A DNA stretch of 46,650 nucleotides from a virus, in the IMG/VR virus record IMGVR_UViG_3300034198_024540, positions 1 through 46,650 of that record. The stretch is one strand, 5' to 3'. The notes below the pieces were generated by a model, which had not been told where the DNA came from, ran no database searches, and worked only from the letters and a program-made list of their open reading frames with translations. Shown here piece by piece: positions 3,296-30,514 of this stretch. Numbering within the stretch: position 1 is the stretch's first letter; each line of letters begins with the position of its first letter. The position numbers and the translations under genes are program-made.

Positions 3296-4024
3296 TCAGG
3301 CCCAGTCGGCGATCGCCATGGGCAGCTTGGACGTGCCGTCGCCCTGCCGCTCGAACGTCTCCAACTTCGGTAGCCTGCCCCAGTGGATACGCTCGTTCAG
3401 GCCGTCCGTCGCCGCCTCGTCCTCGACGACGAGGAAATCGCCGGTCGTGCCCAGGTCGAGCTGCATCGCATACAACCGATCGCGCAGCGTGTCGGACAGG
3501 TCGACCATCGTCCAGGCATAGCCGCCCGCGACCGCCCCTTTCTCCCCGCCGAAGCCGCCCGACCAAAGCCGCTCCGACCGGCCGGTATCGACCAGCGGGC
3601 GGCCCGAGCCATATTCATACGCCGAACGCATCGTCTGTCCCACAACAGCCACCCCGGCGCTGATCGGCGCGGCGGCGGTGACGCGGAGCTGGACGTAACG
3701 GGTGACGACCGGCGCGGGCAGCACGCAAAGCCCGTGACGCAGGACGGGCGGGCGGCGATGGCTATGCGCGAAGACGCCCGGCACCGCCGCCCCGTCGAGG
3801 CCGGGCACGACGGCAAAGCCATCGGCCGCGCTGGCGGTGGTGAAGCCCAGGACAACGCGGTCGATCGCCTGCGCCGTGCCCAGGTCCAGGACGATGATGG
3901 CCTGGGCGGCGGCGGCGGCAAAGGCTTCGCGTGGGCTGGGCGTCGCCAGATTGGCGCGGCCGGTTCCCGCCGACGACCGCGCCTCGTCGACGGTGAAGGC
4001 GATGGGGTTCACAATCGACAGCAT
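3296..4024 (-). CDS. Tail fibre/spike-associated hypothetical protein
   Basis: A 242-residue protein. The N-terminal half contains IIVLDLGTAQAIDRVVLGF and later RYVQLRVTA, a pattern like F5/8-type (discoidin-like) beta-sandwich carbohydrate-binding domains; this is a tentative match. The C-terminal half (residues 130-242) has GEKGAVAGGYAWTMVDLSD and a hydrophilic end. Start at 4024 overlaps the upstream gene stop (TGATG). It sits between the tailspike and the lysis genes, which fits a distal tail or host-surface-binding part. Confidence 0.6.
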   Translation of the reverse strand: MLSIVNPIAFTVDEARSSAGTGRANLATPSPREAFAAAAAQAIIVLDLGTAQAIDRVVLGFTTASAADGFAVVPGLDGAAVPGVFAHSHRRPPVLRHGLCVLPAPVVTRYVQLRVTAAAPISAGVAVVGQTMRSAYEYGSGRPLVDTGRSERLWSGGFGGEKGAVAGGYAWTMVDLSDTLRDRLYAMQLDLGTTGDFLVVEDEAATDGLNERIHWGRLPKLETFERQGDGTSKLPMAIADWA

Positions 4025-4383
4025 CAGGCCCCCACGCGCTTCAGGATGGTCAACGAGGTCGTGCCGTTGTCCAGCTCCTGCGCTCCGATTACGAAGACGA
4101 GGTCGCCGGGGCGATAGTCCAGCCGGGTGCAGTCGGCGACGATGCAACGGCCTTGCAGGTCCGCCCGCGCACCCGCCACGATCGCCACGTCCTCGACGAG
4201 CGGATAGCCGTAGAACGCGGCCAGCCGCGCCCCCTCGGCCTGCGCCCCCGCCTCGGTCGCGAAGGGCGAGGCCGACGTGATCGTCCGCCCCTTGGGAAAG
4301 CGGGCGGCGGAGGCGGTCGCCACCGGCAGCTCGCGCTGGGGGGCCTTGAGCTGGGCGGCATATCCCGCCGCGACTTGGGTCAT
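4024..4383 (-). CDS. Hypothetical phage protein downstream of tailspike
   Basis: A 119-residue protein, not recognised. The first half is Ala-rich (GYAAQLKAPQRELPVATASA), the second predicted beta (VAIVAGARADLQGRCIVADC, YRPGDLVFVIGAQELDNG). It lies 13 bases after the beta-helix tailspike gene and overlaps the next gene, so it belongs to the tail fibre operon. A capping or attachment protein for the spike is possible. Confidence 0.6.
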   Translation of the reverse strand: MTQVAAGYAAQLKAPQRELPVATASAARFPKGRTITSASPFATEAGAQAEGARLAAFYGYPLVEDVAIVAGARADLQGRCIVADCTRLDYRPGDLVFVIGAQELDNGTTSLTILKRVGA

Positions 4384-4396
4384 TGCATTTCTCCGG

Positions 4397-6994
4397 TCAT
4401 GCCGCCTGGCTTACGAATGCCTGATCCGTGCGCAGCTCAGTTTCGCCGGGTGGCAGCGCTGCGGTGCGGATGTCGAACAGCTTTACGACATTCGTGACGC
4501 GATTAGATTGTACCCGACCGCCGGTCGGGCGATCGACGAAGAGGCCGACCGGGCAGTCGCGGATATCATTGTCGTTGGCGACAAAACGGGTGCGATATTG
4601 CAGGCGCTGAATACGACCGGCCAGCGTGAAGGTGGTCGGGCCAGTGCCTGACACCGCGATCGCACGATTGCAGCGGACGATGACGTTCCCGTAGATTTCG
4701 AGGTCGGCACAGTCGAAATCGCCGCCCGGCCCGATCGCCCAGGAATAACCGTAGAGGTCCGCGTCGGAACAGTAATTCCACCGGACGATGGCGCGCCCAA
4801 GCGTATTGATGCCAATGCAGAAGTTGTGGCCCTTTACGTTGTTGCATTCGACCAGGGCGGTCTGCGACAGCACCACGATCGCGCCCTTGCCACCGCCAGT
4901 GTAGGCGGCGACGCGGTTGTGGCGGACGATCGCATGGCATGGGTTGGCGACGTAAAATTCATTGTTCCGGCCAATCTGAATACAGTCCGCCTGAACCCCT
5001 TCGGGCGGCGGGATCAGATTACTTTCGACGATCGCGATGCCCCCGACACCCTCGACATACACGCCATCGCCCGCTGTCAGACCGAGATTGTCATGGATGT
5101 GGCAACGCCGAACCGCCACGTCCTCCGACAATGCGTTGCCGGGCAGAGGGATTTCCTGAAACGGAAGCGCGCGCAGCTCGACCACATCGCCGATCGCGGC
5201 GGTCCCGGTGATCGTGAACAGAATGCCGACCGTTGTCGAGGAATAGGCGATTTCGCCGCTGGCAGTGCCGCCGACCGTTCCGTCCGGGCGAAGCACGCGC
5301 CATTGGGTTGCGGCACCGCTGCCGCCCGTGGTGCATTCCACACGAAAGACGCCGGTCAGCGCCGCTTCCGTGGCCCCGACCCCTGTCACCTGGACATTGG
5401 CCGGTGCCGATTGCAGGACGGCCATCGCCTTGCGGGTGTTTCCGCGCAAAGCAACGGCGATCGCGTTACGGTCGGACCGCGACCCGTTCCCCGTCACTTC
5501 GCAATTGTCGATGATGATGCCCGAGCCACCATAGGCATTGATCCCGCGCTGGGTCGCGCCGGTGATGCAAAGCCCGTCCAGCCGCCAGAGAGTCGCGCCG
5601 TTCTCGTCGACGCCATTCAGCCCGCCGCCCACGCGGGGTGGGGCTCCGGCACCGAAGGCCGTGTAGGTACAGCCATAGATGGGCAGAAGCGTCTCGGCCC
5701 AGGCACCGCCCCGCGCCAGCCGCACATCGCTGCCCGCCGCCAGCACACCGAGCATCGCCGCGACCGCCAGTGATTTCCACGCCGTCGCCGGGGTCTTGCC
5801 GTCCGCCGTGTCGTCGCCGGTCGGCGAGACATAGCGCGCCGCGTCGACCACCATCGTACCCGTCGCGGTCCAATGCTCCAGCGCCCCGTCCGACAACTCG
5901 CCGCGCACCTCAACGGACCGGACCGTGCCGTTCAGCGGCGTGCCCCCGGCCGCGTCGGCGCCGACGATCAGCCGCGACAGCCCGGCGGGCGGCTCTCGCC
6001 AGCAATCGTGGCGCAGCATCCCCGCCGCTGCCAGCGTCCAGCCCCTGGGCGACACGCGCAGCGCCACCCGCAAGCGCCCCGGCCCCAGGACGCGCGCGAT
6101 ACGCGGTCGCCATGGGCTGGCGGTCGAGGTGACGGACAGCGCATTGTCGATCGTGCGGCTGACCGCGATCTCGCCGCCGGTCGGCGACACAAGGGTCAGG
6201 ACGCGCCGATCGACGCCGTCCGCGCGATCCAGCTCCAGCTCGATCAGGATCGTGTGCGGCCGGGAATAGCGCGACGCGACATCGGCCAGCGTCTCGGCCC
6301 CGCGCGTGACCGGCTGGCCCAGCGTGACGATCGGACTTGTGATGCGGTCCAGCTCGACCTGCGGCAGGATGATCAGCACCTCGGACCCCGCCCGCACCAT
6401 CAGGCGCGCCTGGCCTCCGGTCGCGGTCGCGGTGTGGATGCGGCCGACCCGCCGCCATTCGGGGCCGGTGAAATCCGGCGTCGACCCGCCGCCCCCCGTG
6501 ACGGTCAAATAGCCGGAGCCTTTGACGCACCGGACATAAGCCGAAATGCCCAGCCGCTGCCCCCCGGCCGCGTTGGCGAAGGGGACCGCGAAATCCGTGT
6601 CGCTGGGATTGATGCAGCGAATGACCTTGCCCGACATCACGCCCGCCGCCAGCAACTCGTCGAAAATGCCCGACGCGGCCAGCGCCGCGCTGTCGTCGGC
6701 GACCATGATGTCCGCACCGGCGGGGCGACTGGAAAGCCGGGCATAGCCGTCGATCGAGGTCGGCGCGGCATTGCGCATCGACAGGAGGTTGGTAGCGGCA
6801 GGCTCCAGCTTCAGCCCGCCACCCGACACGATGCGCGGCTGTCCGGCGGGTGACAGGCGCAGCCGCCCGTCCGACGCCAGCGCGATCCCGCCCGCGCCGA
6901 TAATCGTCAGCCCGGCCACGTCGGCCGCGCGCGCGAAGCTGCGCTTGCCGACAGAGAAGCGACCGCCTGCAAAATCGACCTTCAGCTTGCTCAT
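4397..6994 (-). CDS. Tailspike with parallel beta-helix
   Basis: An 865-residue receptor-binding protein. The start at 6994 overlaps the upstream stop as ATGA. Residues 1-35 (MSKLKVDFAGGRFSVGKRSF) probably attach it to the tail. The middle contains a lectin-like beta domain. From about residue 385 (ARYVSPTGDDTADGKTPATA) comes a right-handed beta-helix with repeated short strands such as GIIIDNCEVTGNG, AIVRHNRVAAYTGGG, ALVECNNVKGHN and AIVRWNYCSDADL, as in pectate-lyase-like tailspikes. It probably binds or degrades surface polysaccharide of the host. The catalytic residues cannot be assigned from sequence alone. Confidence 0.85.
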   Translation of the reverse strand: MSKLKVDFAGGRFSVGKRSFARAADVAGLTIIGAGGIALASDGRLRLSPAGQPRIVSGGGLKLEPAATNLLSMRNAAPTSIDGYARLSSRPAGADIMVADDSAALAASGIFDELLAAGVMSGKVIRCINPSDTDFAVPFANAAGGQRLGISAYVRCVKGSGYLTVTGGGGSTPDFTGPEWRRVGRIHTATATGGQARLMVRAGSEVLIILPQVELDRITSPIVTLGQPVTRGAETLADVASRYSRPHTILIELELDRADGVDRRVLTLVSPTGGEIAVSRTIDNALSVTSTASPWRPRIARVLGPGRLRVALRVSPRGWTLAAAGMLRHDCWREPPAGLSRLIVGADAAGGTPLNGTVRSVEVRGELSDGALEHWTATGTMVVDAARYVSPTGDDTADGKTPATAWKSLAVAAMLGVLAAGSDVRLARGGAWAETLLPIYGCTYTAFGAGAPPRVGGGLNGVDENGATLWRLDGLCITGATQRGINAYGGSGIIIDNCEVTGNGSRSDRNAIAVALRGNTRKAMAVLQSAPANVQVTGVGATEAALTGVFRVECTTGGSGAATQWRVLRPDGTVGGTASGEIAYSSTTVGILFTITGTAAIGDVVELRALPFQEIPLPGNALSEDVAVRRCHIHDNLGLTAGDGVYVEGVGGIAIVESNLIPPPEGVQADCIQIGRNNEFYVANPCHAIVRHNRVAAYTGGGKGAIVVLSQTALVECNNVKGHNFCIGINTLGRAIVRWNYCSDADLYGYSWAIGPGGDFDCADLEIYGNVIVRCNRAIAVSGTGPTTFTLAGRIQRLQYRTRFVANDNDIRDCPVGLFVDRPTGGRVQSNRVTNVVKLFDIRTAALPPGETELRTDQAFVSQAA

Positions 6995-7803
6995 GCCCAA
7001 GTCCCCTGAAGGACCAGGCGCAAGCCCTCGGCATCCTTGCCCTCGGCCTGGACCGCCAGCGTGATGAGGCTGTCCAGGGCGACCGGCGCACGGGTGATCG
7101 TGGGCTGGGTGGTGCCCGCCGCCCGGCTGGATCGCTGCCCAGGCAGGACGCGCAGGGGTGACGAGAGGATCGACGCCCCACTGATCCGCAGGTCGGCCTG
7201 GATGCCGAGCGTCCCGGCCGGGGATTGATCCGGCTTGCGCACCGACAGGCTGGCGGCCGACAGCATCATCGCGGCAGGCGCGATCATCCATCCCGCCTCC
7301 TCGTTGACGCGAACGATCTCGTCATCCGCATAGCATCCGATGGTCAGGGTGAAGGGCGCGCCGACCGCCCCGACGACCTGGCCCGCGTCGACCAGCACGC
7401 CATCGGTCTTGCGAATCATCAGATGGCCGGTCGCCTGATCGACATAGGCGTTCGCCACGCCGACGCCCTGGGGACCACGGTCGCCCGGCGGGGGGCTGAT
7501 GACCGCCGATCCGGCCAGCGCCTCGGTCGAGGCGATGAGAGACAGCACCTTCCGGGAAAGGGCGTAATTCTCATTCATGATCGGCAGCAGGAAATAGGTC
7601 AGCCCGGTCGCGCTCGCGCCCGGATAGGGCTCGACCAGCGTCAGGCTGGTCGGGCCGTCGACCGATGCGACCGGATACACCCCACCCGCGATGTTGAGCA
7701 CCAGGCCGTCATAGCCCGCAAGCCATGACGATCCGGTGCCCGTCACCGTGCGCGACCCGCGCGTGACGGCGATCGTGCCCGCCTGTTCGAAGGGACTGGC
7801 CAT
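6991..7803 (-). CDS. Tail fibre/adhesin protein
   Basis: A 270-residue protein. The N-terminal 80 residues (GTIAVTRGSRTVTGTGSSWL, then PTSLTLVEPYPGASATGLTY) match the small beta domain at the start of many phage tail fibres. A short GDRGPQG segment near residue 107 looks collagen-like, followed by beta-rich sequence. Start ATG 7803 overlaps the stop of the 51-residue gene (TGATG). It probably links the tail tip to the beta-helix spike encoded next. Confidence 0.75.
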   Translation of the reverse strand: MASPFEQAGTIAVTRGSRTVTGTGSSWLAGYDGLVLNIAGGVYPVASVDGPTSLTLVEPYPGASATGLTYFLLPIMNENYALSRKVLSLIASTEALAGSAVISPPPGDRGPQGVGVANAYVDQATGHLMIRKTDGVLVDAGQVVGAVGAPFTLTIGCYADDEIVRVNEEAGWMIAPAAMMLSAASLSVRKPDQSPAGTLGIQADLRISGASILSSPLRVLPGQRSSRAAGTTQPTITRAPVALDSLITLAVQAEGKDAEGLRLVLQGTWA

Positions 7804-7958
7804 CACTCCGGCTCCACGATGCCGAAGCCGTCGACCAGCGGGTCGACGACTTCATACGTCTCGCCGGGCGCGAGCTGGGCGGCGATATCTTCGCGGGGAC
7901 AAAGGACCTTGCGCAGGCGCGCGCCGTCCGGCCCCAGGATCACGATCAGGACCATCAT
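7803..7958 (-). CDS. Small phage tail protein, 51 residues
   Basis: A short gene with the product MMVLIVILGPDGARLRKVLC followed by a beta-like hydrophilic tail ending DGFGIVEPE. It overlaps the tail tip stop (ATGA) and the next gene start (TGATG), which leaves little doubt that it is translated. Function unknown; the tail fibre context suggests a small structural or chaperone role. Confidence 0.7.
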   Translation of the reverse strand: MMVLIVILGPDGARLRKVLCPREDIAAQLAPGETYEVVDPLVDGFGIVEPE

Positions 7959-10612
7959 ACCTTTATCTCTTCGACGTAGAAGTTGGACCCGGCCTCCATG
8001 AAGCCTTGGTCATTGCCGCCGCCATAGGCGACGAAATCGATCCAGAAGCTGTGCGAGCCAGCGGGAAGACCGGCAAAGGCGCGGCCATAGTTAAACGGCA
8101 GCCGGACCGACCGGAAACCGTTGATGACGCAGGCCGTGACCCAATACCATTTGGTGTCCATGACGGTGTCCGCACCATCGGTGGTCCGCCCGAACACGAA
8201 GTAGCCCGCGTAATCGCGGCCGGGGCGCGGTGCCATGTTGCACTCGATCCGAATGCTGCTGTCGGCGAGCTGCTTGGTCACCCCGAGCGTCAGATAGCGC
8301 GATCGCCCGCCATCGCTGTTCGGCAATGCGACATTGCCCGCCAGCTCGGCGCTGTAGCTGCGCCGGATCGCATAATCGGCCAGCGCTGGCGTATCGATCG
8401 ACTTTACCTTGAAGCGGTCGACCCGGACGTCCGGCATGTAGACGCCATCCTTGTCCGCGTGAAAAAGCTGCTTCTCGGTTTCGTCAGGCAGGGCGATGGT
8501 GAAGGCGTCGGTGGAAAACGCGATCGCTGACACGCCATTGTCGATCGCGATCCCCATGCCCGCGACGTATTTCTTGCCGCCTTGGGTGGTCTGGACCTTC
8601 AGCGTATATTCGGCCGACAGGCCTTTGATCTTGTCGGCCACCGCTTTCATGGACTGCTCGAGCGTCGCGTCACCGACATTGTCCAGGCGAGCAGTGAGCG
8701 TCTTCACGCTCTCCGCGACGGTGCCGGTGGCCGTCCTGTACGATTTATCGACGGTCTGGATCGCTGACTCCAGCGTGACCGTTTCTCCATTGAGAATGAC
8801 GGTCACGCGCGTGCCCAGGTTCTGGATGCGCTGGGCGATCAGATTGCCGTCCTTATCGATAAGGACTTCGCGCAGGTCCTTGATCGAAGCTTGCCGATCC
8901 AGACCCTCTTGCGTCACGCGCGCGCCTATGTCGTCGACGCTCTTGATGACGGCGCTGTTGGCATCGACCCGCGCCTTTTCCTCCTTGACCTGCCACGCCG
9001 ACACGGCTTCGCCGAAATTGGCGATCCGCTTGTCGACGGCCTCGAAGGAGGCGAAATTCGCGTTGGCGATGGTGCGGCGCAGCTGGGTCATCCCCGCTTC
9101 GACCTCGCCCTTCACATTGATCCCGGCGACCTTCTTTTCGTTTTCGTCGAGGCGGCTGGTCAGCTGCTGGAAGCTCTCGGCGACCTTGCTGCCATCTTTT
9201 TCGATCCGGGTACCCAAGGTCTGGATCGCGACGAGGTTCTGGCTCGCGAGGGCGCTCGCCGCGCTGATCGCAGCCGAGCCGTAATCGATGTTGAGCGCGG
9301 CCTGTCCGTCGATCGCCGACTGTAGAAGCCCGGTCAGCCTGCGGCCGACCAGATTGGCCGTGACCGCGTCGGCCTTATCGACAGCCTTCTGCACCCCATC
9401 CGTGAGCGTCGTCGCCAACTTGTCGAGCGTCGAGCCGTCACCGAACGCCACGTCGCCCGCCAGCACGGCGGCGCTGATCTCGGCATCGGTGTGGACGCGG
9501 TGATTCTTCTGCCAGCCGACCTTCACATTGGCGATCGGCGCATAGGCCGCACGCCGCTCGACATCCTCGAACACCACCGTCTCGACCGGGTCGGCAAAGG
9601 CGATGGGGCGAAGCGCGATGCGCTTGTCGGCGGTCACGCCCCAGGACAGCGAGGCGCGCAGGCACAGGCGGTCCAGCATCTGGGCAGGCGTCTCGCTGGC
9701 ATCGTCGGCGTGCAGCCCGGCCGGATCGGGGCGAAGCGCGGCGATCGCCGCCAGTCCGTCCACGACCGGCCCCTCGGCGGCGGCGGAAATGGCGGCGGCG
9801 ATGCCGGGCACATGCTCGACATAGCCGGTGCCCAGCTCACCGCGCAGGTCGGCGGTCAGGGTGGACGGCTGGGTCCAGAACTTCACGCACGCGATGGAGG
9901 GGGCGGCGGCGCACCCGCCCTCGGGCACCGATGCAGCCTTCAACGCGTCGAGCGTCGCGGCGACCGACCCGGCCCAGGCGACGGTGACGATCGCGACCGG
10001 GCGGCCCTTGTCCTTGACCGCGTCGAACGCCGAAAGCGCACGCGCCGGGTCGCCGAACTCGTAGATATTCCAGGCGGCGAGCAGGACGCGCCCCTCGACA
10101 TTCCAGCACCGGCCCCAGCTCCGGCGCTTCACCCGCCCCTTCGCCGCCGCATCGCCCTCAATGCCGCCGGTCCCGGCGAAGCTGTCCTTGACCAGCGGTT
10201 CGCCCAGGCGGCCCGCCATGTCGGACAGGGTGAACACGAACCGCCCGGCGCTGACCGAATAGCCCGCGACCGTGCCCGCCAGACGTACCTTGAAGCCGGG
10301 GTCGGCGGCCTCGTCGTCGGCGACGGACACGGTGATGGGCGCGTCGTTCCAGACCAGCCCGGCGATCAGCGCACGGGTCGCGGCCATGGCGGGGGAAAAG
10401 CCGATCGCGCTGGCCTGCGCCACCGCGCCCCCGGTGAAGCCGTCCTTGCCGAAGCCCAGCGCCGATTCGATGCGCGGCACGCTGATGACGCCCGCGCGCC
10501 AGTCGGACTGGCCCTTGAACAGGTAATGGGTGCGCCCGCCGCCAGCGAGGCGGATGTCCACCGGCTGGCCGGTCGCATCGCTGGGGCGTGCCTCGACGAT
10601 GACCGTCTTCAT
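7955..10612 (-). CDS. Tail tip / central fibre protein
   Basis: An 885-residue protein. Residues 1-400 hold beta-rich and mixed sequence typical of the baseplate hub or tail-tip attachment region of B3/lambda-J-like phages (KGQSDWRAGVISVPRIESAL, TPAQMLDRLCLRASLSWGVT). Residues 410-690 are long coiled-coil sequence with repeated LT-x-R-L/ID-x heptads. After residue 700 comes a segment (KYVAGMGIAIDNGVSAIAFS) typical of DUF1983-like fibre regions, then a beta-rich C-terminal domain. It follows the tape measure with an overlap. It probably forms the tail tip and central fibre. Confidence 0.82.
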   Translation of the reverse strand: MKTVIVEARPSDATGQPVDIRLAGGGRTHYLFKGQSDWRAGVISVPRIESALGFGKDGFTGGAVAQASAIGFSPAMAATRALIAGLVWNDAPITVSVADDEAADPGFKVRLAGTVAGYSVSAGRFVFTLSDMAGRLGEPLVKDSFAGTGGIEGDAAAKGRVKRRSWGRCWNVEGRVLLAAWNIYEFGDPARALSAFDAVKDKGRPVAIVTVAWAGSVAATLDALKAASVPEGGCAAAPSIACVKFWTQPSTLTADLRGELGTGYVEHVPGIAAAISAAAEGPVVDGLAAIAALRPDPAGLHADDASETPAQMLDRLCLRASLSWGVTADKRIALRPIAFADPVETVVFEDVERRAAYAPIANVKVGWQKNHRVHTDAEISAAVLAGDVAFGDGSTLDKLATTLTDGVQKAVDKADAVTANLVGRRLTGLLQSAIDGQAALNIDYGSAAISAASALASQNLVAIQTLGTRIEKDGSKVAESFQQLTSRLDENEKKVAGINVKGEVEAGMTQLRRTIANANFASFEAVDKRIANFGEAVSAWQVKEEKARVDANSAVIKSVDDIGARVTQEGLDRQASIKDLREVLIDKDGNLIAQRIQNLGTRVTVILNGETVTLESAIQTVDKSYRTATGTVAESVKTLTARLDNVGDATLEQSMKAVADKIKGLSAEYTLKVQTTQGGKKYVAGMGIAIDNGVSAIAFSTDAFTIALPDETEKQLFHADKDGVYMPDVRVDRFKVKSIDTPALADYAIRRSYSAELAGNVALPNSDGGRSRYLTLGVTKQLADSSIRIECNMAPRPGRDYAGYFVFGRTTDGADTVMDTKWYWVTACVINGFRSVRLPFNYGRAFAGLPAGSHSFWIDFVAYGGGNDQGFMEAGSNFYVEEIKV

Positions 10613-13600
10613 CGGACATAATCCCGCTCGACCAGCGTCCGGTCGGGCACCACCGTCAGGCCCGCATCCTGCCTGCCCTGATCGACCAGCTCCTGGAGCA
10701 AGGCGGTCTGCGCCTCGGCCGCCTTCAGCATCTGCGCCGACAGCGCGTTGCCCGTCTCGATCGCGCTGGTCTGTGCCGCCTGGACGCCCGCCGCGCTGTC
10801 GACGCGCTTGGTCTCGATGTCGATCAGCGCGCGTGCCGTGTCGCCCGCCGCCTTGCGGTCGGCGGCATATTCCTCGCCGCCCGTGCCGAACGCGTCCTTC
10901 GTCGTCGCCAGCAATTGCCGGTACAGCTCGGCCACGCGGTCGGCCGCGCCGTCCTTGCCCTGTTCGGCATCGGCGCGTGCGGTGGCGATGTCCTTCAACA
11001 GGCTCTGGCGCCGGTCGACGGCCGAGCCCTCGAACAGGTCGCCGCCGGACATGCTGGCCAGCAAATCCTTCAGGCTGCCGACCCGCGATTTCAGCGTGTC
11101 TTCCAGAAGCTTGGCGCGCTCGGTCGCGTTCAGCTTCTCGACCTGGAGCAGGTCCAGGCCGTACGCCTTGGCCAGCCGGACGCGCTCGGCGGCGGTGCGG
11201 TCGAACGTCTCGAACACGGCCCGGAGCTGGCCGGTCAGCCCGCCCAGCGACCGTTCGAGCTGCTGGACCTTCACCGCCTCGGCGACCGCCTTGTCCAGCG
11301 ATCCGGAGCGTTGCAACGCCTTTGCAACGGCGGGCGACACGTCCTTGACCGCACCGTCCGCGATCGCGTTGCGGATGGCGATCTCGATCGCCTCGGCCTC
11401 GTCCTTGCCATTGTAGAGCAGCGGGATGCCGGGATGCTTTTCCGACACACGGCTGCTGCCGCCGCCGTCGACGCGGTAGTAATCCTCGCGCTTGCCGATC
11501 GAGACGTTGAAGCTGCCGACCTCCGCGCCCAGGGCGTCGGCAATCTTCTGGATGCCGGACTGGACGTTCTTGGCGGTGCCCGACAGCGCCTCGCTGATCT
11601 TCTCGTCGCCGCCCAACGCGGCCTTGCCGTCGACCGAGCTGATCGTGGCCCGGCCGGACTTCACCCCCTCGAACAGCTTGCCGATGATGCCGCCCGCCAG
11701 CCCGGCGATCGCGCCCGCCCCCGGAATGCCGGTCAGGCCGCCCAGCGCGCCGCCGATCATGCTGCCGGTCGCGCTGGTCTTGATGCCGACCAGATTGGCG
11801 ATCGACGACGCGGCCTGCCCCTCGAACGCACCCGCCAGCCCCTTGCCCGCGAATTTGCCCAGGTTCTGACCGATCTTCGACGCCGTCTCGGGATTGGTGA
11901 ACAGGCCGATGGTTTTGGTCGAGATGCCGCCGATCGCCTTGGAAAATAGCTCTTCGGGACTGCGAATGGTCCGGCGCGGGGCGGTGACTTTCACCTCGGG
12001 TCCGTCGATCCCCTCCGCACCGGCCGGAGGCGGCGCGGCGGGCGCGGTCCCGCCCGGAGCCTTTTGCACCGCAGTGGCGGCACCGCTGGCAGCGCGGGCA
12101 AGCGTGTCCAGCGCGGTGCTGGCCTGCCCGGTGCGGGTGGACACGATGTCGAGCGCGTCCGCCATGCGGGTCGACGCATCCTCGACAATGCTGGTCCCGG
12201 TGACACTGTCTTCCAGCTGCTGGAACAGGTCGCCAAACAGGCTGTCGACGATCTTCTCGGCCGACACGCGCGAGAAGCTTTGCATGATCCGCTCGGGCAG
12301 CTTGTCGAGGCCGCTGTCGCCGGAAATGGTCGCGGTCAGAAGGCCGCGGATATCGGCGATACCGGCGAGGTAGATCCGCTGGCGCTGGACCATCCGGTCG
12401 AGCAGCCGCTCCTGTGCCGACAGCGCCTGGGTGGCGGCGAGGATCGCGTCTTTCTGTTCCTCGGTCAGGGGACCGCGCTGGCGCTCCAGCTGTTGGATCG
12501 TGCGCAGCGCCTCGGCCTGATCGCGGTGGCCGTACAGCATTTCTTGCCCGACGGCGTAAGCGTCGCGCTGGCTTTCGACGAAATCCTGGATCGGGCGGTT
12601 CAGGCCGTCGCGCACGACGCCCTTCGCCTCCTGCGCCTGAGCGATCAGGTCCTTGAACCCCGGCGGCTTCTTGCGCGCCAGATCGTCCATGATGTCGTCG
12701 AGCTGGCGCAGGGCGGCATTGGCCTGGCGCACGGCGGGCGGCGTCCGGTCGAACGCATGGGTGATCCCGGCGATGCGCGCGGCGGCGTCGCGGCCGAACT
12801 CGTCGCGCGCGTCGTTGCTCTTCGGCTTCGGGGGCTTCTTGCCCCTCGCGTCGCGCCGGAGCCCTTCGGCCAGCTTGCCGTCGTCCAGCGACTGGTCGAT
12901 CAGGTCGGCGATCTTCTCCTTTGCGCCCGACGCGGCGCGGTCGATGATCGCCTGCTGGAATTGCTCTCGGGTAATCTTCAGGCCGGTGAAGTCGAACTTG
13001 TCGGTCACGCGCAGGACGTCGGCGGCCGATGTCCGCCCGGCCTCCAGGTCGGTGACGACGCCGCGCAGGTTGCGGGCATTCTGCCGCGCCTGATCCGACC
13101 CGGTGATCGCGCCTGCCAGATAGCCCGCCGGTCCGCGCCCTTCCAGCGCACCGCGAAAACGCCCGGCCGCGCTGATGCTGTCGACATTCCCGAACGTCTC
13201 GCGGGCGCTGTCGCGCTCCTTCGCCGCCGTGCCGCGCAGGTTCAGGGCGGTCAGCCGCGCGTTGAGGATCAGCAATTCATTCTGTTTCTTCAGCTTGCCG
13301 CTGGTCAGGTCGAACATGCCGCCCAGCACGCCCTGCGCCTCGGCCAGACCGTCCGCGCCGACCTTCGCCGCCTCGGCCGCTTCCTCGGCCTTGAACAGGT
13401 TTTCGATGAACGGGAGGATCACCGCCGCGCCGACCGTCAGGGCGATGCCCCAGGGGCCGGTCAGGAACGCGCCGACCTTGCCCGCCGTGCCGGACATTTC
13501 CGACATCGCATAGCCCATCTGCCCCATCTGCTGGGTGAAGGCGCGCACCACGTCGCCGGTCGTGATCGCCTGCAACCCGAAGTCGCCGAATTGCTGGCCC

Positions 13601-14712
13601 ATGGAGCGCACGGCGAAGCTGTTGCGCCGGGCCTCCGCCTCCGCCTCGGCGGTGCGGCGGGCGGCTTCCCGCTGCGCCTGGGCGAGCTTGATGGCGGCGA
13701 TCGCGGCGGCGGCTTCCTCGCGCTCCGTCTCGGTCGTGGCCGCCGCCAGCCGGGCCTCGGCCGCCGCCAGCTCGGCCGCCTCGCGCGCTGCCGCACCGCG
13801 CGCCTGGCTCTGGGCGGTGGTGGCGCGGGTCGAGTCCTCGGCCGACCCGGTCGCCTGATCGGTGGCGGTCGCCTGCTGGCGCGAGGCGTCCGACGCGGTG
13901 GCCGACGCCTCGGCCAGCGCCTGCGCGGCCTGTGCCGTCGAGCCCGCCGCGTCGCCGCTGCGCTCCAGCGCCTGGGCGAGTTGGCCGGTGTCGCCGGCGC
14001 TGGCCTGGGACTGGGTGGTCAGCGCGGACACGGCGGCGGTCGCTGTCGCGGATGCCGCCGTGCTGTCGCGCAGGGACTGGGAATAGGCCTCTTCGGCGAC
14101 CTGGGCGCGCTGGCGTGCCTGGGCGAGGTCGGCCGTCGCCGTCGCGATCGCCTGGGCATCGCCCGCCGCATGCGCGCTGCCGCCTCCGGGCGACAGGGTG
14201 ATGGTCGGATTATCGGGCGTCAGCTCGACGCGGCCCTTCGCCTGGGCCAGCTTCGTCTCGGCCGCCGTCACCGCCTCACGTGCGGCATCGCGCTCGGCCT
14301 TCGCCAGATCGGATGCCGCACGCGCCGCCTCGGCCGCCTTGGCGGTGGTGGCAGTGTGGGCGCGGGCGACACGACCGGCGGCGGCGACCAGCTCGTCCGC
14401 GCCGGACGCCGCGCCGCGCGACTGGTCGGTCAACTGGCCCAGCGCGGCGCTCGCCTGTTTCGTCGATCCGCTCGCCGTGATCGCGGCGCGGCCGGTGCCC
14501 TCCAGCGCAGTCGCGGCCTCGCGTGCGGTGGTGGTGACGCCCGCCGCGCGCGAGGCCTCGCCGATCGCCGTGACCAGCGCGCGGGCCTGCGTTGCCGCCC
14601 CCTCGGCGGCGGTGCCGATCCCGGCGATGGCGGCGGCGCTGTCCTTGGCCGCGCCGACCAGGCCGGAGCCATCGGCCTTCAGCCGGACGGAAACGATCAG
14701 GTCGCGACTCAT
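10609..14712 (-). CDS. Tail tape measure protein
   Basis: A 1367-residue protein, the longest in the window, which would set tail length. The first ~360 residues are Ala/Gln/Glu-rich coiled coil. A hydrophobic segment (GIALTVGAAVILPFIENLF) lies near residues 418-438 and a Gly-rich hydrophobic region (GIPGAGAIAGLAGGIIGKLF) near 990-1010. By the usual rule of about 1.5 angstrom per residue, a tail near 200 nm would be expected. It starts one base after the chaperone stop and overlaps the tail tip gene. Long antisense ORFs here are mirror artefacts of its GC-rich codons. Confidence 0.93.
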   Translation of the reverse strand: MSRDLIVSVRLKADGSGLVGAAKDSAAAIAGIGTAAEGAATQARALVTAIGEASRAAGVTTTAREAATALEGTGRAAITASGSTKQASAALGQLTDQSRGAASGADELVAAAGRVARAHTATTAKAAEAARAASDLAKAERDAAREAVTAAETKLAQAKGRVELTPDNPTITLSPGGGSAHAAGDAQAIATATADLAQARQRAQVAEEAYSQSLRDSTAASATATAAVSALTTQSQASAGDTGQLAQALERSGDAAGSTAQAAQALAEASATASDASRQQATATDQATGSAEDSTRATTAQSQARGAAAREAAELAAAEARLAAATTETEREEAAAAIAAIKLAQAQREAARRTAEAEAEARRNSFAVRSMGQQFGDFGLQAITTGDVVRAFTQQMGQMGYAMSEMSGTAGKVGAFLTGPWGIALTVGAAVILPFIENLFKAEEAAEAAKVGADGLAEAQGVLGGMFDLTSGKLKKQNELLILNARLTALNLRGTAAKERDSARETFGNVDSISAAGRFRGALEGRGPAGYLAGAITGSDQARQNARNLRGVVTDLEAGRTSAADVLRVTDKFDFTGLKITREQFQQAIIDRAASGAKEKIADLIDQSLDDGKLAEGLRRDARGKKPPKPKSNDARDEFGRDAAARIAGITHAFDRTPPAVRQANAALRQLDDIMDDLARKKPPGFKDLIAQAQEAKGVVRDGLNRPIQDFVESQRDAYAVGQEMLYGHRDQAEALRTIQQLERQRGPLTEEQKDAILAATQALSAQERLLDRMVQRQRIYLAGIADIRGLLTATISGDSGLDKLPERIMQSFSRVSAEKIVDSLFGDLFQQLEDSVTGTSIVEDASTRMADALDIVSTRTGQASTALDTLARAASGAATAVQKAPGGTAPAAPPPAGAEGIDGPEVKVTAPRRTIRSPEELFSKAIGGISTKTIGLFTNPETASKIGQNLGKFAGKGLAGAFEGQAASSIANLVGIKTSATGSMIGGALGGLTGIPGAGAIAGLAGGIIGKLFEGVKSGRATISSVDGKAALGGDEKISEALSGTAKNVQSGIQKIADALGAEVGSFNVSIGKREDYYRVDGGGSSRVSEKHPGIPLLYNGKDEAEAIEIAIRNAIADGAVKDVSPAVAKALQRSGSLDKAVAEAVKVQQLERSLGGLTGQLRAVFETFDRTAAERVRLAKAYGLDLLQVEKLNATERAKLLEDTLKSRVGSLKDLLASMSGGDLFEGSAVDRRQSLLKDIATARADAEQGKDGAADRVAELYRQLLATTKDAFGTGGEEYAADRKAAGDTARALIDIETKRVDSAAGVQAAQTSAIETGNALSAQMLKAAEAQTALLQELVDQGRQDAGLTVVPDRTLVERDYVR

Positions 14713-22974: not shown

Positions 22975-24441
22975 ATGAGCACTCGCACGACACTTCCAGT
23001 CGCGCTTTCGATGATGATCGGAAGCTGTTCGGTCATGATGAACGGCAGCGTCGATTCCCCCGATGGCTTTCCTTTTCCGGTGCCGGGAGCCACCGCCACT
23101 CCGACCCCAACGCCGACGGCCACCCCGACGCCCAGCGCGGGAAGCCCCGACCGTTACATGTTCGCTTTTACCCGTCTGCGGATGCCCAGCGGCCCGCTCG
23201 TCACCGCTGCGGCCGACACGCCGTTCGTCATGACGCGGATCGTGGCGGGGTCGCCGCAATATCGGCTGTGGGGCGTGCGTTGCCACTTTTCGGGCTTCGC
23301 CTCCACGGAAGGCGGCATGGCGCCGCAGGAGTCGATCCTGCCGGGCAATGCGACGCGGATCGACGGCTTCTGGCTGTCGATCGGGCGCACTCGGGTTCGC
23401 GCGACCTTTGCCGACGCCATGACCGCCAATGTGGACAGCGGGACGACCGGCGTCTGGACCGACGAGATTGACTTCGCAGGCGGCATTCCCGCCAACAGCG
23501 ATGTCGGCATGACCACCGCGTACCACACCGCCGCCGGTGAAAAGCAGATTCCGGTCTATCGCATCCAGTCGAACCGGGGCGAACGGGTCTGGGGCGGCAC
23601 CGATCTCGCTTCGGTCACGGCGCATCTGGATAGCCCCGGCGATTTCAGCACCGCTTCGCTCGACACCGGCTCGGGTCAGGCGATGCCGCAATATTACGGC
23701 CCGGACGTTTGCCTGGGCAAGGGATGGGACGGCAATCCGGTCGTGCTGGGCGCGGTCGATTCCATCGGCGAGTCGCGACAGGAATATGCGGTCGAGGCCG
23801 ATACGCGGGGCAATCTGGGCTGGCTTCGCAAATGGCTGGACACGGCCGATGGCACCTATGGCCGGACGCCCCATTTCCTGATCGGAATGCCCGGCGCGCG
23901 GTCGCAATATGAACTGGCGGCGGGCGCGACACTGCGCTGGCAGGTCATCGACCAGGCGGCGGCGTTCAACACCGGTCGCGCCCTGCCGTTCACGGTGCTG
24001 GTCAACCAGCTGGGCCAGAACGACCTGAACAGCAAATTTGCGACCATGCGGGCCAACTATACCGGTTTCCTCGACCGGTTCGCCGCGCGTTATCCCGGTA
24101 TCCGCGTGGTGGCGACCGGCGTCCTGCCGCGTACCTCCAGCACGGACCTGTGGATGTCCCGCGCCAACCAGACGCTGGTCACCGGCAACGAATGGGGCAC
24201 GGCGGGCGGCCGCTGGGGCACCGGCTTCAAATGGCAATTGGAGGCGTACAAGGAATCCGGCGCTGAGGGCCGCATCGCAGGCTACATCGACACCCGCCCC
24301 TTCTGGTATGACGACACCGCGCCCGGCACTTGGCCGGTCCTGTCCAGCCAGCCGAGCCCGGAAGGCGTCCACCCCTATGCGGTCGCGGTGACCGCGATCG
24401 TCGGGGCGATCCCGCAATCAGGCAAGGCAAAGCTCCGCTGA
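22975..24441 (+). CDS. SGNH/GDSL-hydrolase-like protein, copy 1
   Basis: A 488-residue protein. Start at 22975 with GGGGAC upstream; the longer frame from 22816 has no clear ribosome site. Residues 1-55 look like an export or anchor segment followed by a Thr-Pro repeat (ATPTPTPTATPTPSAG). SGNH-like blocks: VDSIGES near 261 (candidate nucleophile Ser), NQLGQND near 344-350 (Asn block), and SPEGVHP near 465 (His). It is a clear paralogue of the protein at 43842-45431. Possible role: deacetylation or binding of host exopolysaccharide as a virion or secreted part. It diverges from the protease gene. Confidence 0.75.
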   Translation: MSTRTTLPVALSMMIGSCSVMMNGSVDSPDGFPFPVPGATATPTPTPTATPTPSAGSPDRYMFAFTRLRMPSGPLVTAAADTPFVMTRIVAGSPQYRLWGVRCHFSGFASTEGGMAPQESILPGNATRIDGFWLSIGRTRVRATFADAMTANVDSGTTGVWTDEIDFAGGIPANSDVGMTTAYHTAAGEKQIPVYRIQSNRGERVWGGTDLASVTAHLDSPGDFSTASLDTGSGQAMPQYYGPDVCLGKGWDGNPVVLGAVDSIGESRQEYAVEADTRGNLGWLRKWLDTADGTYGRTPHFLIGMPGARSQYELAAGATLRWQVIDQAAAFNTGRALPFTVLVNQLGQNDLNSKFATMRANYTGFLDRFAARYPGIRVVATGVLPRTSSTDLWMSRANQTLVTGNEWGTAGGRWGTGFKWQLEAYKESGAEGRIAGYIDTRPFWYDDTAPGTWPVLSSQPSPEGVHPYAVAVTAIVGAIPQSGKAKLR

Positions 24442-25152: not shown

Positions 25153-25174
25153 TCTGGCGTCCTGCTACGCCAGA
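25153..25174 (-). terminator. Hairpin at end of repressor-cargo operon
   Basis: TCTGGCGT-CCTGCT-ACGCCAGA, an 8-bp stem with a 6-base loop, overlaps the stop codon of the 38-residue gene. It is the likely end of the leftward repressor-cargo transcript. Confidence 0.55.
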
Positions 25175-25281
25175 AGCTCGCGGACCCAGGAAAGCACGGG
25201 CAGCACGACTCGGACGCCTACAATGAGCGCCAAGGCCGCGATCTCGATCGCGATGATGACGCGCTCGGCCCTTATCGACAT
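25165..25281 (-). CDS. Small membrane peptide, 38 residues
   Basis: The product MSIRAERVIIAIEIAALALI plus VGVRVVLPVLSWVRELLA has one long hydrophobic stretch (residues 8-32) behind a basic N-terminus and would cross the inner membrane. Its start overlaps the thermonuclease stop by 10 bases, so it is co-translated. Too short for family assignment. Candidate partner or immunity peptide of the neighbouring secreted proteins or DUF6161 membrane protein. Confidence 0.55.
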   Translation of the reverse strand: MSIRAERVIIAIEIAALALIVGVRVVLPVLSWVRELLA

Positions 25282-25643
25282 CGCTTGCCGACCAGACGCC
25301 GATTATCCCAATCCGCCCGATATCGTGCCTGCCCCGCCCGCAGCTGCCAGCAAGACAGGTCGCCCCGCCGCCCAGCCACGGTCGCAAGCGTTCGGCCGTA
25401 ACGGTCGAGGCCGACGCGCACGATCCGAAACGGCGGCTGCAACGCCGATGCAAGAGACGCCTTCGACGCGACCGGGTCACCCCGCACGCATCGCCGCCCT
25501 GGCCGACAATGGCCCGGCATCTCGGGCGCATCGATGGCCAGCAGGCGTATCCGCTCTCGGCCGCAGCGCAGGGTGTCGCCATCAACGGCGATCGGCGTGC
25601 AGGTCAGCGCCTGAGCCGCGATGGCGGCGATCAGAGGCAGCAT
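25272..25643 (-). CDS. Thermonuclease family protein (SNase-like), secreted
   Basis: A 123-residue protein. It begins with a short signal-like segment (MLPLIAAIAAQALTC) and then has PIAVDGDTLRCGRERIRLLA-IDAPE, the hallmark of staphylococcal-nuclease-like proteins: calcium-site Asp in DGDT, catalytic Arg in RIRLL and Glu in DAPE, and the second Arg in DRYGR. Start ATG at 25643 is preferred to the longer 25673 frame because it begins right at the signal segment. It overlaps the upstream gene by 13 bases. It should degrade DNA or RNA in the periplasm or outside the cell. Because it sits in the repressor operon, it may be made in the lysogen and could attack incoming phage DNA; that is an inference. 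Confidence 0.82.
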   Translation of the reverse strand: MLPLIAAIAAQALTCTPIAVDGDTLRCGRERIRLLAIDAPEMPGHCRPGRRCVRGDPVASKASLASALQPPFRIVRVGLDRYGRTLATVAGRRGDLSCWQLRAGQARYRADWDNRRLVGKRCR

Positions 25644-26146
25644 GAATGCTTCGGCTTGGACTGGCGCGCCCATTTGCCGCGATCGGCGAGGAAGTCGATC
25701 GCTTCGCCCGTCCGGGACGTGGCGTTGGCATTCAGCGTTTCGGCGCTCTGCAACTTGCCCCCCTCCAGCCGAAACGCGCAGACCTGTTTCCGTGGCTGTG
25801 CTTCGTTGCCGAGCCGATAGGTCAACACCATGCGCCGAAGGGACAGGCGACCGGCCTTAGCCGCCAGTTCGTCGGCGAGGTTGCGCAACGCCTCAGCCTC
25901 GCCCAAGCCATGCACCGACGCAGATACCCCGGCCTGTTCCTTAAAGGCAGCAGGCGACAGCGGACCGCTATCCTCTCTCGCTACACTAAGGAGTTTATAA
26001 ATGCCCCCCTCCGGCACATGTCGTTTAATGTGTAATTCACAAGCCATGAAATCCGGCCCCTTAGTTACGGCCGAATAATCACTCTGTGATGCGTTTGAGT
26101 TGAGCGGAAAAGAGGTTAAAATAACAATGAAAACAGCCGGTTTCAT
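25631..26146 (-). CDS. Secreted hypothetical protein
   Basis: A 171-residue protein with a signal peptide (MKPAVFIVILTSFPLNSNA, cleavage near residue 19). The mature part is mixed helix/beta with ACELHIKRHVPEGGIYKLLS and RRMVLTYRLGNEAQPRKQVC. A cysteine pair (ACEL, QVCAF) could form a disulfide. Start overlaps the stop of the DUF6161-like gene as ATGA, and its end overlaps the nuclease gene. No family recognised. Its base composition is between that of the AT-rich gene upstream and the GC-rich nuclease. Confidence 0.7.
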   Translation of the reverse strand: MKPAVFIVILTSFPLNSNASQSDYSAVTKGPDFMACELHIKRHVPEGGIYKLLSVAREDSGPLSPAAFKEQAGVSASVHGLGEAEALRNLADELAAKAGRLSLRRMVLTYRLGNEAQPRKQVCAFRLEGGKLQSAETLNANATSRTGEAIDFLADRGKWARQSKPKHSCCL

Positions 26147-27483
26147 GCTTGCTTACCGGCAGCCATCGTAGCCAAAAGAGATGGCATAGAGATAACCGGC
26201 GGGCCATCATCAGTTGTACCGTCAGAAACTGGAAGAAAAAGATTACTTAGGACTATAGGGCGCTCATTGTCCTTGACGCCGCCTTCCAGCATCAAGCCTA
26301 TATAGGTTTGAGTCATCGCCTCTCTTCCTGCCGCATCCACAGCCAATCGACGTTGCTGAACGTAATTTCGAACCAGAACTCTGGTCACCCAAAGAGACAT
26401 TGTCACCCAAAGTAACGTCACCGACGCCGCAACAATAAGCTGAGTATGCAAAATCGTATTAGCAAATTCTAATTTCTGATCTGCTGTTATATTTACATCG
26501 CTTGGGATAGTAACAAAGTATCGAGCCAGCTTGTTGATCGAAAATGCTATTAAGGGTGTTCCGGCAATACCAGCAACACCCGTTCCGATTGCAGCCAACC
26601 CAAATTTGTTTGCCGACCTTTCGTGCTTTATAGCTCTATCATGCCAAAGTTGCGCCGCAGGCTGCAATATAACCTCATCACGAAAAGCCTTTCTAGATTT
26701 CTCCATCTCCTCAAGAGCCGTTACTTTTGTTTCCCGGACATTCTCATGGTATGAGTTTGATTTCAAAACCAAATCATCAGCTAGTGAGTGAAGGTCCTTT
26801 CTTATATCGGAAAACTCATCCAAAACTACAATTCGCGAACTATTAATATCAGACGAATATTCTTCTATCTTTTGAATAGTTATATTAAAGTTCCGTTCGA
26901 CATCCGACAAACTTTTGCCAATCAGAAGGGAGAGCTTGTTGTATTTTTGATTAACATCTGACCAATTTTCGTTAGATGTGCGAATTTGTTCCTGGATAAC
27001 AGATCCGTGCGATCCAAGGGCGATTCTGGAGTAATGAAATGCACCGGCCGTACACGATGTATTCGTCCAGTCGATCTTGGAGCTCCCAATTCCAGCAATT
27101 GCAAATGCGGCTTCAAGTGCAGATATATTAATATTGTGGTATATCCATCTGAACGCCTGTCCAGCGGTAGACCTAACCATGACTATAGTCTGCTCGTTTC
27201 CCCAGTCAGCGTTGGTTAAGTCAATTATCCTATTATCATCGACGCTTTTCGAAAAAATCTTTTCTAACTGCAACCAGGACTGCGTTACACTATCGACACA
27301 AGGAATCGACTCTTTGTGAACGCCAACGCCATTTTCATCAAGAAGCGTGAATGCCGCCTCCCAATCCTCCCGTTCGCGCTGACACCAAAGTACGGCCTGA
27401 GAAATGTGATCGAGATGTACTGGGCCGCCAAACTCGTCTCGCGAAATAACCTCAACCATTGCCGCCCGCCCCCGCCGGTTCAT
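26143..27483 (-). CDS. DUF6161-like membrane protein, cargo
   Basis: A 446-residue protein, clearly AT-rich beside its neighbours. The N-terminal ~270 residues are helical and coiled-coil rich (SDVERNFNITIQKIEEYSSD, NVRETKVTALEEMEKSRKAF). Two membrane segments follow, near residues 292-312 (FGLAAIGTGVAGIAGTPLIA) and 348-370. The C-terminal end (MTQTYIGLMLEGGVKDNERP, NLFLPVSDGTTDDGPP) resembles the conserved end of DUF6161 proteins. Start is uncertain: TTG 27495, ATG 27483 or ATG 27459. It begins about 30 bases after the repressor stop, so it is likely read with the repressor in the lysogen. Superinfection exclusion or abortive defence is a reasonable guess. Confidence 0.68.
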   Translation of the reverse strand: MNRRGRAAMVEVISRDEFGGPVHLDHISQAVLWCQREREDWEAAFTLLDENGVGVHKESIPCVDSVTQSWLQLEKIFSKSVDDNRIIDLTNADWGNEQTIVMVRSTAGQAFRWIYHNINISALEAAFAIAGIGSSKIDWTNTSCTAGAFHYSRIALGSHGSVIQEQIRTSNENWSDVNQKYNKLSLLIGKSLSDVERNFNITIQKIEEYSSDINSSRIVVLDEFSDIRKDLHSLADDLVLKSNSYHENVRETKVTALEEMEKSRKAFRDEVILQPAAQLWHDRAIKHERSANKFGLAAIGTGVAGIAGTPLIAFSINKLARYFVTIPSDVNITADQKLEFANTILHTQLIVAASVTLLWVTMSLWVTRVLVRNYVQQRRLAVDAAGREAMTQTYIGLMLEGGVKDNERPIVLSNLFLPVSDGTTDDGPPVISMPSLLATMAAGKQA

Positions 27484-28497: not shown

Positions 28498-28706
28498 CCC
28501 CCGTGCTGTCGATTACTGGCTTGGCCCATGCTGCTGCGTCGACCAGTTCGGCAGCCGCACAACCCTGTGCAATTCCTGTGGTCATTCGGCCCATCCGCTT
28601 CGCGTGCGACGAGACGCACGACCACCCCCAATCTGTCGATAACTACCGGACAGAAGACCGCTTTCGCAAGCCGCGCCGCGTGTCCCAGCCGGAGACCCGC
28701 GCATGA
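28494..28706 (+). CDS. Small early hypothetical protein
   Basis: A 70-residue protein (MTPVLSITGLAHAAASTSSA...VSQPETRA). The first part is Ala/Ser-rich, the second is charged (VDNYRTEDRFRKPRRVSQPE). Both ends overlap neighbours as ATGA (Ner-like upstream, transposase downstream), so translation is coupled. No family recognised. Confidence 0.55.
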   Translation: MTPVLSITGLAHAAASTSSAAAQPCAIPVVIRPIRFACDETHDHPQSVDNYRTEDRFRKPRRVSQPETRA

Positions 28707-30514
28707 CGCTGCTCGGCCGTGATTATCTGTCGGCATTGGAGATCGCTTCGCTGGAGCTGGAGGGCCTGCCGACCAACCGCACGGCCGTCGCCAATCGTGC
28801 GAGCCGGGGCGAGTGGCGCTGGATCACGCGCCAAGGACAAGGCGGCGGGCGGCTGTTCGCCGTCGCCGACTTGCCCGAGGCGGCGCGCCGGGATTATGCG
28901 GATCGCACCGCGGCCCAGCCGGTCGGCGGGCAGCGCGGTCGGCCGAAGGGCTCCGATTTCTTCACCCGCAATCCCGACGCGGCCGATGCCGTCGAGGCCT
29001 GGCTGGCCGAGCGCGACCTGTCGGCGACCGCGATCCTGGAGCTGATGCACAGCCGCTTCGCACCGCTGCCGTCGATCCGCACCGTCCGCCGCTTCATCGC
29101 CCGGCTGGAGGCATCCAAACCGGCGCTGCTCGCCAGCTTCCGCGACCCGGACCTGTACAAGTCCAAATACCGTGTCGCGCTAGGCCGCGCCGATGCGGGC
29201 GTGTCCTACTCCCATCAGATTTGGGAGATCGACACCACCAAGGCCGACGTGATGACCAAGGAGGGGCGCAAGTCGATCCTGGGCATCGTCGATGTCTGGT
29301 CGCGCCAGACCTTTTACCTCGTCGTCGACAGCGAGTCCGCCCAGTCAGTCCGCCGGACGCTGGTTGCCGCCATGACCGCCTGGGGCGTGATGCCCGAGGT
29401 GCTGCGCACCGACCAGGGATCGGGCTATATCAACGCCACGGTGCGCACCGCCTGCGCGCTGCTGGGCATCGTCCATGATCCGGTGCCGCCCGCCAGCGGT
29501 GATAAAAAGCCGTTCGTCGAGCGGATGTTTGGCACCTTCACCCGCGAGCGGGCCGAGCTGCTGGGCGGCTATATCGGCCATAATGTCGCCGAAGCGTCGC
29601 GGCTGCGCGCCGTTGCTCGCAAGGAGACGAAGCGCCCGGTCATCGTGCCCGAGCTATCGGCCGACGAGCTTCAGGCGATCGTCACCAACTGGCTCGATGG
29701 TGTGTACCATGTCCGCGACCATTCCAGCCTGGGCGCATCGCCCATGTCGCGCTGGACCAATTCCCCGCGCCCCGCGCGCGGTGCCCCGGACGAAGGCACG
29801 CTCAAGCTTCTGCTGTCGGCGCTGATCGGCCCGGCCCAGGTCACGAAGCGCGGCATTACCTGGAAAAAGGGACGCTACTGGACCCCGCCGTTGGCGGCGC
29901 ATGTCGGCTGCACGGTTATCCTGCGCCGCGACGAGGACGATCTGGGGGCGCTCTACGTCTTCGACGAGGACCAGCGCTACATCGGGACAGCGGTCAATGC
30001 CGAGCGCTCCGGCCTATCGGACCGCGACTTCGCGGTCGAGGCACGCCGCCAGCAAGCCGCGCTGATGAAGACGCACCGGGCCGAGCTGCGCGAGAAGCAG
30101 CGCCGCTTCTCGTTCGAGGATGCCCGCAACGCCGTCCTGCGCCGCGATGCGGAGGAAGCGGGCAAGCTGGTCACGCTGCCGGTCCGCACGGTGGAGCATC
30201 AGACGCCCGCCATCGCCAGCATTGCCGACGCGCCCGACGTGCTGCCCAGCGCCAGCGCGATCGAGGCGGCGGAGGCGCGCTACCCCCGCACGGTCGTCAG
30301 CGCACCCCGGACGTTCGAGGATCGCATGGCCGAGGCGGACCGCACCCTGGCGGACCATGCCGCCGGTCGGCCGGTCGAGCCGGACGCGCTGTCCCGCGCC
30401 CACGTCTTCACCCAGTCCCACGAATATCGCGCTCACAAATTGCTGACCGCCGATTTCACGGCGCGGCGCAGCCCGCCCGCCGTCACCCCTTCGCTCAAGG
30501 AGAGTTCGCTTTGA
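28703..30514 (+). CDS. Mu-type DDE transposase A
   Basis: A 603-residue transposase (MuA is 663). N-terminal Mu-type DNA-binding domain (residues 1-70: SALEIASLELEGLPTNRTAV, GRLFAVADLPEAARRDYA). The rve catalytic core has WEIDTT (Asp177), RTDQGSGY (Asp237) and KPFVERMFGT (Glu273), a D-D-35-E arrangement. A Mu C-terminal beta-barrel region follows (TKRGITWKKGRYWTPPLAAH). The end is charged and would contact the B ATPase. It catalyses integration and replicative transposition. Overlaps its neighbours by 4 bases each. Confidence 0.95.
   Translation: MTLLGRDYLSALEIASLELEGLPTNRTAVANRASRGEWRWITRQGQGGGRLFAVADLPEAARRDYADRTAAQPVGGQRGRPKGSDFFTRNPDAADAVEAWLAERDLSATAILELMHSRFAPLPSIRTVRRFIARLEASKPALLASFRDPDLYKSKYRVALGRADAGVSYSHQIWEIDTTKADVMTKEGRKSILGIVDVWSRQTFYLVVDSESAQSVRRTLVAAMTAWGVMPEVLRTDQGSGYINATVRTACALLGIVHDPVPPASGDKKPFVERMFGTFTRERAELLGGYIGHNVAEASRLRAVARKETKRPVIVPELSADELQAIVTNWLDGVYHVRDHSSLGASPMSRWTNSPRPARGAPDEGTLKLLLSALIGPAQVTKRGITWKKGRYWTPPLAAHVGCTVILRRDEDDLGALYVFDEDQRYIGTAVNAERSGLSDRDFAVEARRQQAALMKTHRAELREKQRRFSFEDARNAVLRRDAEEAGKLVTLPVRTVEHQTPAIASIADAPDVLPSASAIEAAEARYPRTVVSAPRTFEDRMAEADRTLADHAAGRPVEPDALSRAHVFTQSHEYRAHKLLTADFTARRSPPAVTPSLKESSL

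Follow-up and report, generated by a model that had tools for sequence, protein, structure and literature searches.

A Distant AbiZ-Family Gene as Cargo in the Putative Lysogeny Operon of a Probable Mu-like Sphingomonas Prophage

Results

The DNA analyzed here (the window) is a virus record from IMG/VR, 46,650 bases long, with a GC content of 66.9%. On its minus strand, a gene for an S24 (CI/LexA-like) repressor, P0007 (27514–28254; Peptidase_S24, E 7.9e-16; phrog_4 transcriptional repressor, 1.6e-34), stands at the head of a putative lysogeny unit, and four overlapping minus-strand open reading frames lie 3' of it. These encode a membrane protein of the AbiZ family (DUF6161), P0001 (26143–27459, or to 27483); a putative exported protein that falls into no family, P0002 (25631–26146); a putative exported SNase-type nuclease of 123 amino acids, P0003 (25272–25643); and a single-span membrane peptide of 38 residues, P0004 (25165–25281). 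The overlaps are 4 bases (P0001/P0002), 13 bases (P0002/P0003), and 10 bases (P0003/P0004), and both this layout and the spacing of about 30 bases behind the repressor on the same strand are as a preliminary description of the locus had reported: the repressor stop is 30 bases from the first ATG of P0001 (27483), or 54 bases from the ATG at 27459. The latter is more likely the true start, because the L003 homolog discussed below and other DUF6161 proteins begin there. P0001 has 438 amino acids from this ATG and 446 from the ATG at 27483, and its residue numbers are counted here from 27459.

The four-gene unit plausibly ends at a possible terminator, a nine-pair hairpin (25175–25152, minus strand), because this hairpin overlaps the stop codon of P0004. 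The folded hairpin has a weak T tract; comparable hairpins with a T tract lie 3' of P0002 in two relatives (L040 and L041). Beyond P0004, after a gap, come P0005 (YozE-like) and then P0006. A large transposase-like ORF, putatively of Mu type, lies at 28703–30514 and has syntenic relatives. The nearest relatives of the window are Sphingomonas, S. paucimobilis NBRC 13935 among them, and we read the locus as the probable lysogeny operon of a transposable (Mu-like) Sphingomonas prophage.

P0001 has been described as AT-rich and foreign-looking and as a DUF6161-like protein with two transmembrane segments, and both statements agree with our measurements. Its GC content is 44.6% and its GC3 is 42%, against 65–88% GC3 in the other genes measured and 66.9% GC in the window. 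The protein scores 44.4 bits against Pfam DUF6161 (PF19658; cut-off 27, E 1.8e-11), and it consists of a long coiled coil followed by two predicted membrane helices near the C terminus, with hydropathy peaks at residues ~288–308 and ~336–359. The corresponding peaks of the AbiZ-like protein are at 301–319 and 334–352. The structural model of P0001 is weak (mean pLDDT 68), and a fold search with it gave zero matches at E ≤ 0.001. A sequence search against solved structures brought up only weak matches, to helical stretches of haemagglutinins.

PADLOC already holds an AbiZ model (PDLC02354) for the family of P0001, so that the proposal of an undescribed system does not apply to this gene. P0001 matches the model with an E value of 3.2e-7 over positions 185–375 of 398, that is, over the C-terminal half and not the full length, and because the match is so limited we file P0001 as a distant member of the AbiZ family, not as AbiZ itself. 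The same profile matches all nine of the proteobacterial DUF6161 proteins first aligned (best 8.9e-16). Searching onward from a Sutcliffiella DUF6161 protein, we reached a DUF6161-annotated protein on the Lactococcus plasmid pUCCL629C that matches the AbiZ model over positions 1–397 of 398 (E 2.6e-166); an AbiA gene is situated about 2.4 kb away from the gene for this protein, and restriction genes of LlaJI type are nearby. When the clade of AbiZ, including the pUCCL629C protein, was compared by hhalign with P0001 and its L003 homolog, the probability was 98.4% (E 4.4e-15), and with the nine-protein profile it was 99.5% (E 2.2e-22). Coiled-coil bias alone does not account for the similarity, because the aligned part takes in a C-terminal tail that is conserved beyond the coiled coil. 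The tryptophan W272 is shared by all 23 family members aligned. The proteins of the window and L003 pair at 100/100 in a maximum-likelihood tree, within a prophage-borne clade of sphingomonad DUF6161 genes (96/96), two of which lie in P2-like prophages. On these comparisons, P0001 almost certainly belongs to the AbiZ/DUF6161 family.

The original AbiZ gene lies downstream of abiA on pTR2030, and its product has two predicted membrane helices. P0001 resembles it in having a coiled coil in its C-terminal part, two helices, and a putatively cytoplasmic tail, in the significant profile score, and in an N-terminal G...W pattern that is common to both in the alignment. It is likewise a single gene on a mobile element, as is the AbiZ-matching Lactococcus gene, which stands among defense genes. 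The two differ in that P0001 is only about 17% identical to lactococcal AbiZ, would have a Gram-negative host, and lies in a prophage lysogeny operon instead of beside AbiA and LlaJI genes. We know of no phenotype reported for any Gram-negative DUF6161 member, and we found no mention of DUF6161 in the literature searched. The homology to AbiZ would give this otherwise unnamed family a testable function.

Genes of this family are sporadic. Matches above the cut-off were present in 8 of 301 Sphingomonadaceae genomes and 9 of 399 Pseudomonadota genomes. Direct tblastn of P0001 against phages and plasmids and a first scan of viral contigs returned no relatives; these were reached only through searches with the nuclease and transposase sequences and with the Pfam model. 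Several family members lie in prophages, plasmids, or defense islands. One locus (L083) has the order hsdM-hsdS-DUF6161-(membrane gene)-AbiD-RhuM-hsdR, and another (L065) is a DUF1156 methylase/PLD-helicase island in which a DUF4062 gene overlaps the DUF6161 gene. On Rhizobium and Vibrio plasmids, DUF6161 adjoins integrase or recombinase genes; in Sutcliffiella it is a stand-alone plasmid gene. The association with defense is partial, because other DUF6161 loci show no obvious defense neighbor. In two sphingomonad prophages judged by eye to be P2-like (L064 and L066), the DUF6161 gene is flanked on one side by the region of tail gene D and on the other by that of the repressor. These two resemble P0001 in belonging to the same tree group, in a GC content that is low for their surroundings, and in being cargo near the repressor region, and they differ from the window in phage type and in the slot occupied. 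An abortive-infection family of Lactococcus is thus thinly spread in Proteobacteria, where its genes are carried in prophages, on plasmids, and in restriction islands. Two of the loci can be delimited further: the type I restriction island of L083 that holds the DUF6161, AbiD, and RhuM genes spans 2985–14001 (plus strand), and L067 carries a broken DUF6161 gene at 2627–4337 (minus strand), the fragments of which adjoin a transposase-like ORF.

Sister prophages were gathered by searching with the transposase and nuclease sequences. In four of them (L002, L040, L041, and L048), the stop of the repressor gene overlaps the start of P0002 by four bases and nothing lies between, and in the window and L003 a DUF6161 gene sits exactly at this junction. 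Because of its low GC content and its absence from the junction in those four prophages, we conclude from the sequences that P0001 is foreign cargo inserted between the repressor gene and P0002. The allele in L003 has 48.0% GC in surroundings of 63.1% and is 39% identical to P0001; the identities between window and L003 are 92% for the transposase, 86% for the repressor, and 81% for the nuclease. The presence of the gene in some sister prophages and its absence from others, together with two such alleles at one junction, amounts to a natural experiment.

The other genes of the unit have different histories. P0002, P0005, and P0006 are present in all close relatives. The nuclease gene is lacking in L040, L041, and L049, in which P0002 is followed by P0005. 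L002 and L003 have homologs of P0004, also of 38 residues, in the corresponding position (45–47% identical), and residues 8–26 of P0004 are hydrophobic, in keeping with its description as a membrane peptide. In L015, a nuclease gene lies at 1983–2348 on the plus strand, opposite to P0002, so that it has either moved or been gained independently.

P0002 is part of the backbone of the phage itself. It has no match in Pfam, PHROG, NCBIfam, or PADLOC; its AlphaFold model has a confident core, and a fold search with this model gave zero matches at E ≤ 0.001. An alignment of seven homologs showed four invariant cysteines and an invariant C-terminal CCL. We considered whether the conserved KHSCCL end of P0002 could simply result from its overlap with the start of the nuclease gene, and rejected this, as L040, L041, and L015 retain CCL and have no such overlap. 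P0002 diverges much faster than its neighbors: the L002 and L003 versions share 57% identity, against 93% for the nuclease.

P0003 falls just below the cut-off of the Pfam SNase family (19.4 bits against 21) and matches phrog_18798, a PHROG with no assigned function, over nearly its full length (E 1.1e-25). In the aligned family, D21, R33, E41, and R84 are present in 36 of 36 sequences and D38 in 35 of 36; by motif, we take the catalytic R33, E41, and R84 and the Ca-binding D21 and D38 to correspond to R35, E43, R87, D21, and D40 of SNase. In these conserved residues, P0003 resembles the SNase-type prophage nucleases of phrog_18798. The N terminus of P0003 is hydrophobic (residues 2–20) and Cys27, Cys46, and Cys52 are conserved in 36 of 36 sequences, features that fit export and make P0003 a putative exported protein.

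Relatives of P0003 were found in 37 viral loci, many of them next to repressor genes or in the P2 slot. Judged by these loci, the nuclease gene is a widespread accessory gene of sphingomonad prophages that almost always occurs without DUF6161: among the P0003-family loci, only L003 has both. Conversely, among the DUF6161 loci read with their flanks, an SNase gene was present only in L066, where the DUF6161 gene overlaps the following gene by 4 bases, and in L069, where it lies 2 kb off and on the other strand. The L066 nuclease belongs to a different SNase-like subfamily and lacks the equivalent of D38. We scanned all fetched loci with HMMs and rejected a conserved DUF6161+SNase pair as a rule; the pairing is occasional.

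Discussion

The preliminary description had placed defense cargo behind the repressor, and the foreign origin of P0001 and its AbiZ family are in line with that part of it. The further proposal of a four-gene system that destroys DNA at the envelope, read as one co-evolved unit, is not supported, as the genes are separable: a search for co-occurrence of DUF6161, the secreted P0002 family, and SNase found P0001 missing from L002, L040, L041, and L048, SNase missing from L040, L041, and L049, and DUF6161 mostly without SNase. P0001 is probably a single-gene defense of a known family, not part of a new four-gene envelope nuclease system.

By a narrow balance, we favor the view that the locus is a lysogeny operon into which an AbiZ-family abortive-infection module has been inserted, a module that would act late and at the inner membrane. 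That P0001 serves anti-phage defense is probable from its family and setting; premature membrane failure as its mechanism is a tentative proposal, made by analogy with AbiZ. According to PMC6356687, AbiZ makes cells that express phage holin and lysin lyse sooner and increases membrane permeability, and an interaction with holin is proposed. Premature lysis is also the effect given in PMC10984412, which reports AbiZ escape mutations in the major capsid protein, so that holin is a candidate partner.

In the favored scheme, the repressor transcript would also supply P0001 in the lysogen, and the protein would be held in the inner membrane by its two helices, with its coiled coil and its two ends facing the cytoplasm. 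During infection by another phage, P0001 would respond to a late event in the phage cycle and permeabilize the membrane, and the cell would die or lyse before progeny mature. The partner proposed for AbiZ is a phage holin, and homology suggests the same for P0001; the trigger may differ, because the proteins share only about 17% identity and the PADLOC match is limited to the C-terminal half. Upon induction of the prophage, the repressor unit and with it P0001 would be switched off, so that the timing of the prophage's own lysis would be spared. P0003 and P0002, as parts of the phage's own accessory complement, would act independently of P0001, and P0003 would most likely degrade DNA outside the cytoplasmic membrane.

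P0001 could instead be a superinfection-exclusion protein that blocks DNA entry or passage through the envelope without killing the cell. A two-helix membrane protein expected in the lysogen would suit such a role, and some prophages are known to encode inner-membrane proteins that prevent entry, P22 SieA being an example (PMC10883804). AbiZ, the only characterized relative, nevertheless acts late and through premature lysis, and members of the family occur in restriction and Abi islands; we regard exclusion as unlikely.

Slightly less probable still is a reading that concerns the nuclease, in which P0003, with P0002, has no anti-phage role and degrades free DNA, blocking natural transformation and thereby the loss or exchange of the prophage, or contributing to eDNA turnover. 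There is a direct precedent in Campylobacter, where natural transformation is prevented by secreted DNases encoded on the integrated elements CJIE1, CJIE2, and CJIE4 (PMC4372405). As described in that paper, CJIE1 Dns of C. jejuni and related prophage-encoded extracellular DNases resemble P0003 as secreted nucleases carried as cargo of an integrated element. The recurrence of the P0003 family in unrelated sphingomonad prophages is consistent with a role of this kind. Such a role would leave the AbiZ-type gene unexplained; being limited to the nuclease, it is compatible with the abortive-infection explanation of P0001.

In the preliminary description, P0001, P0002, the nuclease, and the peptide formed one envelope barrier to superinfection, in which the membrane protein would position the nuclease against injected DNA. 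The tight gene overlaps, the conserved catalytic residues of P0003, and the 4-base overlap of DUF6161 with an SNase-like gene in the P2-like prophage L066 speak for it. The genes nonetheless occur separately: L002 and L048 have P0002, SNase, and the peptide without DUF6161, L040 and L041 have P0002 without SNase, L003 is the sole nuclease locus with DUF6161, most DUF6161 loci lack SNase, and the nuclease of L066 is of the other subfamily, without the D38 equivalent. We consider a joint barrier improbable to a marked degree.

To the same degree we doubt that P0001 is a recent passenger without function here. Its low GC content and its absence from most close relatives would fit this, but the frame is intact with all family motifs, an intact 39%-identical allele lies at the same junction in L003, and P0001 overlaps P0002 by 4 bases. 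Very improbable, finally, is a cooperation in which the AbiZ-family protein opens the inner membrane and the periplasmic nuclease enters to destroy phage and host DNA, for which the 4-base DUF6161/SNase-like overlap in L066, an unrelated P2-like prophage, would represent an independent origin of the pairing.

The repressor/P0002 junction and the stretch downstream of it form a cargo site that would repay a search for more defense genes. In the window, a plus-strand gene at 22981–24441, between P0006 and the gene at 21774, encodes an exported GDSL-lipase-like protein (Lipase_GDSL_2, 3.1e-6, below the cut-off); it has no counterpart there in L002 or L003 and looks like a second cargo insert. L048 has a second cargo point between P0004 and P0005, where a minus-strand gene (4428–5609) encodes a protein of 393 amino acids with a zinc-peptidase-like HEVAH motif and no match in Pfam or PADLOC. 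In two more distant relatives, L047 (5631–6410, minus strand) and L050 (6104–6877, minus strand), an unrelated-looking secreted protein is encoded right behind the repressor, so that genes for exported products may occupy this position repeatedly.
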